From Streptacidiphilus jiangxiensis (GTDB lineage: Bacteria > Actinomycetota > Actinomycetes > Streptomycetales > Streptomycetaceae), in NCBI RefSeq assembly GCF_900109465.1, contig NZ_FOAZ01000003.1:248001-312000 (forward strand): DNA of 64,000 nucleotides. Direction: 5' to 3'. Both the position numbers and the translations under genes were made by a program. Numbering within the stretch: position 1 is the stretch's first letter; each line of letters begins with the position of its first letter. Shown in pieces: positions 7,205 through 23,194 of the stretch. Below the pieces are notes generated by a model. That model saw only the letters and a list, made by a program, of their open reading frames with translations. It had not been told where the DNA came from and ran no database searches.

Positions 7205-7213
7205 TGTGGACAA
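7205..7213. promoter_or_regulatory. DnaA box in the dnaA promoter region
   Basis: TGTGGACAA is a perfect inverse match to the Streptomyces DnaA box TTGTCCACA. Just upstream is the weaker TTTCCCACA. The box lies immediately before the candidate -35 of dnaA, the position expected for autoregulation, which is known for Streptomyces dnaA. Confidence 0.8.
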
Positions 7214-7295: not shown

Positions 7296-9071
7296 GTGGC
7301 TGACCCAACAAACGATCTCGCCGCCGCATGGGCGCGAGTCGTCGAGCGACTGGCGAACGACCCGGCGGTCGAGTCCATGGACAAGAAGTGGGTGCAGCGC
7401 ACCCACCCCATGGGCATGATGGCCCACACCGCCCTGCTCGCCGCCCCCAACGAGTACGCCAAGGGCGTCCTCGAGGGCCGGCTCGTGCAGCAGATCACCG
7501 AGATGCTCGGCCAGGAGTTCCAGCGCCAGGTCCTGATCGCCGTCGTCGTCGACGCCAGCGCCGGGACCCTCGCCCCGCCGGCCCCCCAGCCCGCACCGGC
7601 GCCGCAACCGCAGAGCTACCAGCCGCAGGCACCGCAGCCCCCGCAGGCACCGGCCCAGCACGGCTACGGCTACGCCCAGCCCTTCGCTGAGCCCTACCCC
7701 GGCGCCCCCGGCGGCCAGCCCGGCTACCCGGCCGAGCAGCCCGCCTACCGCGACGAGTGGGCCGTGCCACAGCTCCCCGTGCAACTGCCGCCGCCGGCGC
7801 AGCCGGAGAACGGCCCCCAGCAGCACCAGTCGCATCTGCAGCACCAGCCGCCCCAGGGGCCGCACGGCCCGCTGCCGGCCCTGCCCGACGCCCCCGGCTC
7901 CGAGATCGCCCCGCGGCCCGAGCACCCCACCGAGACCTCGACCCAGCTGCCCGCCGTCCCCGGCACGCCCCCGCTGCCGCGCCCCGGTACCGGGTCCAGC
8001 GGCAGCAGCCCGCTGCCCGTCGGCGGCGGCAAGGACGAACCGGCCGCACGGCTGAACCCCAAGTACCTCTTCGACACCTTCGTCATCGGCTCCAGCAACC
8101 GCTTCGCCCACGCGGCCGCGGTCGCCGTGGCCGAGAGCCCGGCCAAGGCCTACAACCCGCTCTTCATCTACGGCGAGTCCGGCCTCGGCAAGACGCACCT
8201 GCTGCACGCCATCGGCCACTACGCCCGCAGCCTCTACCCGGGCACCCGGGTGCGGTACGTGAGCTCCGAGGAGTTCACCAACGAGTTCATCAACTCGATC
8301 CGCGACGACAAGGGCGACGGCTTCCGGCAGCGCTACCGGGACATGGACATCCTGCTGGTCGACGACATCCAGTTCCTGCAGAACAAGGAGTCGACGCAGG
8401 AGGAGTTCTTCCACACCTTCAACACGCTGCACAACGCCAACAAGCAGATCGTGATCTCCTCCGACCGGCCGCCCAAGCAGCTGGTCACGCTGGAGGACCG
8501 GCTGCGCAACCGGTTCGAGTGGGGCCTGACCACCGACGTCCAGCCGCCCGAGCTGGAGACCCGCATCGCGATCCTGCGCAAGAAGGCCATCCAGGAGCAG
8601 CTGAACGCGCCGGCCGAGGTGCTGGAGTTCATCGCCTCCAAGATCTCGCGCAACATCCGCGAGCTGGAGGGCGCGCTGATCCGCGTCACCGCCTTCGCCA
8701 GCCTCAATCGGGCACCGGTGGACCTGCAGCTGGCCGAGATCGTCCTCAAGGACCTGGTCCCGGGTGGCGAGGAGGACGGGCCGGAGATCACCGTCGGCGT
8801 CATCATGCAGCAGACCGCCGCCTACTTCGGCCTCAGCGTGGACGACCTGTGCGGCTCCTCGCGCAGCCGGGTCCTGGTGACGGCGCGCCAGATCGCCATG
8901 TACCTGTGCCGGGAGCTGACGGACCTGTCGCTGCCGAAGATCGGTGCCGCGTTCGGCGGCCGCGACCACACCACCGTCATGCACGCGGACCGCAAGATCC
9001 GCACGATGATGGCGGAGCGCCGGGCCATCTACAACCAGGTGACCGAGCTGACCAACCGCATCAAGAGCTGA
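7296..9071 (+). CDS. dnaA: Chromosomal replication initiator DnaA
   Basis: A 591-residue DnaA. Domain I spans about 1-88. A very long Pro/Gln/Ala-rich linker (domain II, about 90-245) is characteristic of Streptomyces and explains the length above the 450-500 usual elsewhere. Domain III has Walker A GESGLGKT at 293-300 and Walker B LLVDDIQF at about 353-360. Domain IV ends with the DnaA-box-binding signature [10 protein letters not shown] at 554-563. GTG start at 7296, with weak GAAGG upstream. It binds boxes in the adjacent oriC, opens the duplex and loads the helicase; the upstream box at 7205 suggests self-control. Confidence 0.98.
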
Positions 9072-12072: not shown

Positions 12073-12081
12073 TTATCCACA
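12073..12081 (+). promoter_or_regulatory. DnaA box in the gnd-recF gap
   Basis: A perfect TTATCCACA, 17 bases before the recF start and outside oriC. DnaA could bind here and influence recF expression or be titrated. Function is inferred from the match only. Confidence 0.6.
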
Positions 12082-21871: not shown

Positions 21872-22705
21872 ATGTCGGACTGCTACCGCCACCCGGGGCG
21901 GGACACGGGGGTGCACTGCGCCCGTTGCGAGCGCCCGGTCTGCCCGGACTGCCGGATCGAGGCCGCCGTGGGCTTCCAGTGCGTGGAGTGCGTGCACGAG
22001 GGGCGGGGTGCCGCGCCCGCGCGGCCGGCGCGCACCGACTACGGCGGTCCGGTGCGTGCGGACGGCGCGCTGGTCACCCGTGCGCTGATCGGTGCCAACC
22101 TGGCCGTGTGGCTGTTGGTGTGGATCGGCGGTGACGACGCCTTCTACCGGCTGGCCATGCAGGGCCACGCGGTCGCCCCAGGCGGCCAGTGGTACCGGCT
22201 GCTCAGCTCGGTGTTCCTGCACGAGCCGAGCTCCTTCGGCATCCTCCACATCGCGCTGAACATGTGGTCGCTGTGGATCCTGGGCCCGTACGTGGAGGCG
22301 GCCGTCGGGCGGCTGCGCTACCTGGTGCTGTACCTGCTGGCGGGCATCGGCGGCTCGGTGCTGGTGATGCTGTCCCGGCCCACCCTGATCGTCGCCGGGG
22401 CCTCCGGGGCGATCTTCGGGCTGCTGGGCGCGGTGGTGGTGATCCACCGGCACCGCGGCTTCGAGCTGGGGCCCATCATGGCCGTGCTGGTGGTGAACCT
22501 GGTGGCCACCTTCTCACTCGGCTTCATCGCCTGGCAGGCGCACATCGGGGGGCTGGTGGTCGGCGCGCTGCTGGCAGCCGGTTTCGTGTACGCGCCGGCC
22601 GCCCCGGCACACCGCCGCGACCTGGTGCAGGCCGCAGCGGTGGTGCTGGTGGCGGCACTGGTCGCGGGGGTGGGCCTGTACGCGGCCGCCCACGTCACCG
22701 GCTGA
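21872..22705 (+). CDS. Rhomboid family intramembrane serine protease with N-terminal zinc-binding box
   Basis: A 277-residue protein. Residues 4-42 hold a B-box-like zinc motif (CYRHPGRDTGVHCARCERPVC and two more Cys pairs). Six transmembrane helices follow from about 67. The catalytic dyad is Ser178 in GASGAIFG and His224 in WQAHIGG; HIALN (126-130) supplies the oxyanion residues. Rhomboids cleave transmembrane helices; the substrate is unknown. ATG at 21872 is preceded by AGGGGAG. A terminator follows. Confidence 0.94.
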   Translation: MSDCYRHPGRDTGVHCARCERPVCPDCRIEAAVGFQCVECVHEGRGAAPARPARTDYGGPVRADGALVTRALIGANLAVWLLVWIGGDDAFYRLAMQGHAVAPGGQWYRLLSSVFLHEPSSFGILHIALNMWSLWILGPYVEAAVGRLRYLVLYLLAGIGGSVLVMLSRPTLIVAGASGAIFGLLGAVVVIHRHRGFELGPIMAVLVVNLVATFSLGFIAWQAHIGGLVVGALLAAGFVYAPAAPAHRRDLVQAAAVVLVAALVAGVGLYAAAHVTG

Positions 22706-22748: not shown

Positions 22749-22928
22749 TTATCCACAGTGTGCACAGAGCGGCTCGCACAACCGTGCGAGCCGCTCTGGT
22801 GTGACCTGCGCTACGCGCGTTCACCTGCGGATGTGATGACTTTCACCGTTCCGGGTGGCTGCTGTCCCGATCGAGTTATCCACAGATAGTCGGGGTTTTT
22901 CCCCACTGTGGATAAGTCGTGTGGACAA
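22749..22928. promoter_or_regulatory. Cluster of four consensus DnaA boxes outside oriC
   Basis: TTATCCACA at 22749-22757 and 22876-22884, TGTGGATAA at 22907-22915 and TGTGGACAA at 22920-22928, all 9 of 9 matches. The second and third face each other around GGGGTTTTTCCCC, so they can also form a hairpin at the end of crgA. The rhomboid-crgA gap thus has more perfect boxes than oriC itself, 13 kb away. DnaA binding is inferred from sequence. Confidence 0.75.
22765..22798 (+). terminator. Rhomboid gene terminator
   Basis: A 15-bp perfect stem (22765-22779 with 22784-22798) and a 4-base loop. Confidence 0.85.
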
Positions 22929-22939
22929 GCGTCAGAGCG

Positions 22940-23194
22940 TCACTTCCACTGGGTGGAGACGCCGAACCCGCCCGCGATGAAAGCGAAGCCGATCAGGATG
23001 TTCCAGTTGCCGATGGCACTGATCGGCCACTGCGCGTTCGTCACGTAGTAGACGACGATCCAGACCAGACCGATCAGGAACAGCCCCAACATGAGCGGGG
23101 CGACGAAGCCGCGGCCCGACTTGAGCTTGACCGCAGTGGCGGTCGTGGTCGGCGGGGTGTAATCCGACTTCTTGCGGATGCGTGACTTCGGCAC
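22940..23194 (-). CDS. crgA: Cell division protein CrgA
   Basis: An 84-residue protein starting [15 protein letters not shown], with two transmembrane helices (about 32-50 and 62-80) and the ending GFGVSTQWK. Size and sequence match CrgA, which in Streptomyces affects FtsZ ring formation during sporulation septation. GTG at 23194 has GGGAG upstream; the much longer open frame upstream is spurious. It is divergent from the DUF881 gene, as in other streptomycetes. Confidence 0.96.

Follow-up and report, generated by a model that had tools for sequence, protein, structure and literature searches.

The DnaA-box cluster at positions 22749–22928 of the window (the whole 64,000-nucleotide stretch of Streptacidiphilus jiangxiensis DNA that was analysed) is, as judged from sequence comparison, one copy of an ancient element located beside oriC across the actinobacteria. 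On the same evidence, its place throughout Actinomycetota is the gap where the ppiA-rhomboid and crgA genes converge. It is probably a dedicated, oriC-proximal DnaA-binding control element which limits or times the initiation of replication, and that it probably controls the amount of active DnaA rather than the neighbouring division gene.

Composition and surroundings of the cluster

The cluster consisted of four perfect DnaA boxes with the consensus TTRTCCACA and one weak box. The distal box (TTATCCACA, 22749–22757, forward strand), a fourth box of the Streptomycetaceae type, was located 127 bp start-to-start from the TTATCCACA box at 22876–22884 (forward strand), which was the most conserved box in Streptomycetaceae. 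The latter was arranged head-to-head, at 31 bp, with the TTATCCACA box at 22907–22915 (reverse strand), the middle box of a core module spanning 22897–22928. The outer box of this module, TTGTCCACA at 22920–22928 (reverse strand), was in tandem with the middle box at 13 bp, while the weak third box, TTTTCCCCA at 22897–22905 (forward strand; two mismatches), faced the middle box head-to-head at 10 bp and could be fitted to the module pattern described below. At 22766–22797, in the interval separating the distal box from the core, a 14-bp inverted repeat without mismatches (AGAGCGGCTCGCAC / GTGCGAGCCGCTCT) could form a terminator-like stem without a T run, and a conserved stem of this type was present in other Streptacidiphilus as well. 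No Rfam family matched the stem at the gathering score; only three hits were obtained, all below threshold, and a known RNA in the gap was therefore rejected.

The gene for a rhomboid-family membrane protease (ORF at 21872–22705, forward strand; PF01694, E 9e-29) and crgA, encoding a cell-division/septation protein (22940–23194, reverse strand; PF06781, E 7.5e-29; NCBIfam equivalog NF002595), converged on the cluster, with the boxes at the 3' ends of both genes. The location between rhomboid and crgA given in a preliminary description of this DNA was thus confirmed, with the correction that the genes are convergent and the cluster is downstream of both. The dnaA gene was positioned at 7329–9062 of the window (converted coordinates), and the distance between the cluster and oriC was approximately 13 kb.

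Pattern searches of the whole genome (9.54 Mb, 93 contigs) revealed 51 perfect boxes, comprising 19 copies of TTATCCACA and 32 of TTGTCCACA. A Poisson estimate gave approximately 8e-9 expected clusters of four boxes within 180 bp in the genome, and the cluster at 22749–22928, whose four previously described perfect boxes were all confirmed, was the densest of this kind to be found. The earlier observation that it exceeds oriC in perfect boxes also held, as the dnaA-dnaN interval had only two (9271 and 9579) besides several one-mismatch boxes. With several boxes of the high-affinity type at a density far above chance, outside but near oriC, the cluster would by its sequence belong to the type described in S. 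coelicolor and B. subtilis.

Other boxes could be seen in the window and genome. A perfect TTGTCCACA at 7205–7213 of the window, approximately 115 bp upstream of the matched dnaA start, is likely an autoregulatory DnaA box, and single perfect boxes occurred outside both oriC and the cluster at 12073, 13298, and 27278. Further DnaA-box clusters of the same genome were found at G000:C57:138498-138742 (L081), 219960-220047 (L082), and 551055-551097 (L083), the first two approximately 117 kb and 35 kb from dnaA on its far side and the third on the side of crgA, approximately 290 kb further away. Pairs at approximately 35 kb and 90–120 kb from dnaA recurred in other Streptomycetaceae. In one family (f16), a second tandem pair, TTATCCACAG-N3-TTGTCCACA, was located approximately 110–121 kb from dnaA on the side opposite to crgA (G085:C1:8694498, G095:C1:1299678, and G115:C1:3505635), and was near-identical among these genomes. 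The searches for box pairs and tandem pairs returned more oriC-proximal clusters, none of them equally conserved beside one gene. The DnaA-box clusters of S. coelicolor were reportedly named H69, H24, and D78 by Smulczyk-Krawczyszyn et al. in 2006, who are said to have shown a deletion phenotype for D78 and not for H69. Clusters of the L081–L083 type may match H24 and D78. H69, reportedly named after the cosmid region carrying crgA, may be the ortholog of the rhomboid-crgA cluster.

Conservation of the element and geometry of the module

Conservation in related genomes, which the preliminary description had proposed as a check, was evident in 80/80 Streptomycetaceae loci, in 56/60 Actinomycetes loci (at least one downstream box), and in 14/20 loci of other classes that encode a distant CrgA (some boxes). 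In the Streptomycetaceae sample of 80 crgA loci, the cluster adjoined crgA in 79 cases and the rhomboid gene in one (L073). Two to five perfect boxes occurred within 500 bp after crgA in 79 loci, and this 0–500 bp bin contained 268 perfect boxes compared to a total of 37 for the remaining 22 bins. The order was constant, with one or more boxes pointing away from crgA followed by a facing box 29–33 bp from the inner box, and usually by the distal box a further 127–159 bp out. The sequence GGGGAAAA after the inner box, which corresponds to the weak facing box TTTTCCCCA, was likewise conserved. Downstream of crgA in Streptomyces loci such as L061, L066, and L067, the third and fourth boxes were also separated by a conserved inverted repeat of considerable length (GCCCCCTG...CAGGGGGC), which could be a small RNA or a terminator acting in both directions.

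CrgA could be detected in 156 of 158 Actinomycetes genomes, and the flanks of 60 loci from 34 families (by working labels) were inspected. When up to one mismatch was allowed, these loci contained 151 boxes within 250 bp after crgA, where dinucleotide shuffles predicted 3.8, and five in the 250 bp upstream of crgA; no perfect box occurred in the 500 bp upstream of crgA in any of the 60. The 20 loci from other classes contained 28 boxes against 1.0 expected, with none upstream. Spacing peaks in the 60 Actinomycetes loci were sharp, at 12–13 bp for tandem pairs and 10–12 bp for facing pairs. The element was lost in a few lineages (L131/L209 and L211), and in the family f3 (L090) the boxes were situated beyond an inserted gene. 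In most families the rhomboid gene was convergent with crgA. The distance between crgA and dnaA was approximately 14–130 kb in most Actinomycetes genomes and 25–55 kb in the other classes, and the boxes persisted; the conserved position could partly reflect slow change of gene order near oriC.

The module consisted of two tandem boxes 12 or 13 bp apart and a third box facing the middle one at 10–12 bp; Streptomycetaceae had two further boxes. When expressed as the pattern TCCMCA-N3/4-TTNTCCMCA-N0/3-TGKGGANAA, it was matched 43 times in the 158 genomes, while the reversed pattern used as control gave no match. Among the 43 matches, 36 were located 0–300 bp after crgA, and in genomes uninspected when the pattern was written the proportion was 24 of 28. 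The other seven were all placed at oriC/dnaA on the basis of coordinates, tblastn, or sequence: dnaA was within the same fetched fragment for G069, G131, G092, and G142, the match in G034 was approximately 1.2 kb from dnaA across the start of the record, and that in G027 was placed solely on its sequence likeness to G092. The match in G119 turned out to be crgA-adjacent. The spacing was 13+10 or 12+11 in 35 of the 36 crgA-side matches. Orientation relative to crgA was the same in 19 and opposite in 17, these counts being clustered by family and not independent events.

The mycobacterial site and the adjoining palindrome

The M. tuberculosis gene Rv0011c is crgA. IDAP-seq in M. tuberculosis revealed five strong DnaA regions, namely oriC, rpmH-dnaA, the region upstream of dnaB, Rv3843c-RVnc0040, and Rv0010c-Rv0011c, and ChIP-seq in M. 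smegmatis revealed the identical five (PMC7738170). DnaA was bound at Rv0010c-Rv0011c both in vitro and in vivo, according to IDAP-seq, EMSA, and ChIP-seq (PMC7738170). Hicks et al. (2020) found this site to be recurrently mutated in clinical isolates and reported "no obvious correspondence" in other species (PMC7738170). Variants of the site lengthened cells, as dnaA variants do, with an initiation rate described as unchanged, and the expression of Rv0010c and Rv0011c was unchanged in dnaA mutants; titration or nucleotide exchange was proposed by the authors as a possibility (PMC7738170).

The mycobacterial site resembled the cluster of the window in being a group of DnaA boxes directly beside crgA and near oriC, as was also the case in the f4 loci. 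It differed in the insertion of a PH-domain gene between the site and the rhomboid gene, an insert which the f4 loci carried, and compared to it the Streptomycetaceae cluster was richer in perfect boxes, included an additional distal box, and lacked the ACACNNGTGT palindrome. Neither this palindrome nor the inserted PH-domain gene was found in the window or in Streptomycetaceae, nor was the 65-bp arrangement of the two. The earlier suggestion that the cluster is a DnaA site outside oriC, possibly for titration, is well supported by its conservation together with published evidence that DnaA binds the mycobacterial ortholog (PMC7738170).

Many modules outside Streptomycetaceae adjoined a palindrome close to GAATTACACNNGTGTAATTC. 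Of the 158 genomes, 49 contained such a palindrome at up to two mismatches, and the control gave no match. The sites among those checked were mostly of two kinds, one beside the DnaA module (L185, L188, L190–L192, L194, L199, and L200) and the other upstream of a WhiB-family gene (PF02467; L180–L184, L186, L197, and L201). A protein binding this palindrome would link the DnaA-module and whiB loci. In L091, the palindrome ended exactly 65 bp before the start of the PH-domain gene, and the "palindromic region" in which Rv0010c-Rv0011c is recurrently mutated is described as lying 65 bp upstream of Rv0010c (PMC7738170). The matching distance suggests that the clinical hot spot is probably the GAATTACACNNGTGTAATTC-like palindrome and not two DnaA boxes, and hence possibly the site of another protein.

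Function of the element and its alternatives

Because crgA is hardly ever far from oriC, a tie to crgA and a tie to oriC cannot be told apart by distance alone, but rearrangements do distinguish them. In S. mesophilus (L073, 44–6255), where a rearrangement displaced crgA by approximately 5 kb from the rhomboid gene, the whole cluster (889+, 1036+, 1068+, 1079-, and 1091-) was found directly after rhomboid. The boxes likewise remained just after rhomboid in the family f21 (L185, L198, and L199), where crgA had moved away, and in the f22 genome G099 they were kept by rhomboid (L188) while crgA was approximately 168 kb away and box-free (L116). As a counter-case, the boxes of f34 (L133) had moved with crgA in a local inversion. 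The element is thus a feature of the oriC-proximal gap and persists there without crgA beside it. A role as crgA promoter was rejected, as the 3' end of crgA faces the boxes and crgA leaves without them; the convergent 3' ends of both genes exclude such a role by layout, and the position of a promoter-type DnaA site, upstream of the regulated gene, was not seen for the cluster in the window. DnaA could instead set crgA or rhomboid expression according to the replication state, by serving as a roadblock or a transcription factor. The cluster adjoins a division gene in nearly all genomes, and E. coli datA shows that interplay between read-through transcription and a site of this kind is possible (PMC10950094), yet this explanation is very improbable given the position at the 3' ends of both genes, the nearly even orientation of the module relative to crgA, the boxes that remained where crgA had moved in three lineages, and the unaltered expression of Rv0010c and Rv0011c in M. 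tuberculosis dnaA variants (PMC7738170). Moreover, the terminator-like stems precede the boxes in some families and come after in others; the stems followed the first box in 28 loci and preceded the boxes in 13, which weakened read-through from crgA as a general gate. The control of crgA expression put forward in the preliminary description was therefore left unsupported.

The reading which best explains the data, and which we consider probable, is a structured, oriC-proximal site that holds initiation back or adjusts it, either as a sink for DnaA or by acting on its nucleotide state. Cooperative assembly of DnaA best accounts for the near-fixed geometry, which was kept across families while the flanks diverged, and this constancy makes a structured complex likelier than a passive sink with boxes in random positions. 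Restraint of initiation is favored by the oriC-proximal place together with the S. coelicolor precedent. A small cooperative DnaA complex would form on the module; as the element would be replicated soon after oriC, its doubling could withdraw DnaA or change its nucleotide state, and the next initiation would then be limited or timed, as with datA or the B. subtilis and S. coelicolor clusters. The longer cells and unchanged initiation rate of the M. tuberculosis variants are unlike the prediction for a pure negative sink (PMC7738170), and the unchanged rate leaves room for other roles.

Passive titration by the number of high-affinity boxes alone, with no special complex, would agree with the four such boxes near oriC and with the further clusters at other oriC-proximal sites of the genome; it leaves unexplained why spacing and orientation are nearly constant in tens of families, and is unlikely, though worth bearing in mind. 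A DARS-like site, in which the core triplet would assemble ADP-DnaA via the head-to-head pair, speed ADP release, and promote initiation, is rather doubtful. The core topology of E. coli DARS, with box I opposite to the tandem boxes II and III, is shared, the tandem spacing is 12/13 bp against 12 bp (PMC5742627), and nucleotide exchange was also raised for the mycobacterial site (PMC7738170). In E. coli DARS1 (TTATCCACT-5-TGTGGATAA-3-TGTGTATTA) and DARS2, which has identical spacing, the facing boxes are however 14 bp apart start-to-start, compared to 10–12 bp in the module; the E. coli loci are far from oriC, DARS2 depends on IHF/Fis, and boxes 3 and 4 of datA are also head-to-head, at 12 bp, so that the topology is not DARS-specific. 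The module would act in the manner of such sites, but as the spacing differs, it is not assigned to the DARS class or to datA. A chance cluster, a transcription-terminator hairpin, or a relic origin without DnaA function would fit the hairpins that can be formed by the 22876/22907 boxes and by the nearby 14-bp stem. The probability of this explanation is practically negligible in view of the approximately 40-fold enrichment of boxes over shuffles across families, the absence of control matches, the lack of hairpin conservation and of a strongly AT-rich stretch in the gap, and the binding of DnaA at the mycobacterial ortholog (PMC7738170). The hairpin noted in the preliminary description can indeed form from the inverted pair at 22876/22907, as from any head-to-head pair of boxes, but is a by-product of that arrangement. 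It was rejected as a functional form, since the facing boxes are 1–3 bp apart in most families, which leaves no room for a loop, and the spacer complementarity is species-specific. A second origin was also set aside, as no AT-rich unwinding stretch stood out, although this is a weak test, the richest 30-mer of the gap being 57% AT compared to 60% for oriC.

Among known systems, datA is similarly intergenic between converging genes (glyVXY and queG), and has two boxes facing head-to-head at 12 bp with another approximately 160 bp away; it differs in requiring IHF and ATP hydrolysis, and the distant box is missing from the class-wide actinobacterial core. The S. coelicolor clusters are likewise located outside oriC in the oriC region and are proposed to limit initiation; in reviews, they and the B. 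subtilis clusters are called datA analogues repressing untimely initiation (PMC5742627, PMC4585315). The oriC-proximal clusters of B. subtilis (Okumura et al. 2012) are also outside oriC, and their combined deletion led to early initiation (as cited in PMC13220808), whereas their loci are different and their gene context is not shared. A more far-reaching reading, possible but on balance unlikely, is that the three-box module is an ancient actinobacterial DnaA switch altering the nucleotide state of DnaA in a DARS- or DDAH-like manner, aided outside Streptomycetaceae by a ACACNNGTGT-binding factor that would also act at the whiB2 promoter and tie replication control to septation.

The control of replication initiation is poorly understood beyond E. 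coli and B. subtilis, and among the actinobacteria are antibiotic producers as well as pathogenic mycobacteria. The present comparison supplies the correspondence by which the M. tuberculosis site can be placed in a phylum-wide element that includes the crgA-linked streptomycete cluster. This element offers defined boxes, spacings, natural rearrangements, and safe laboratory hosts for testing.
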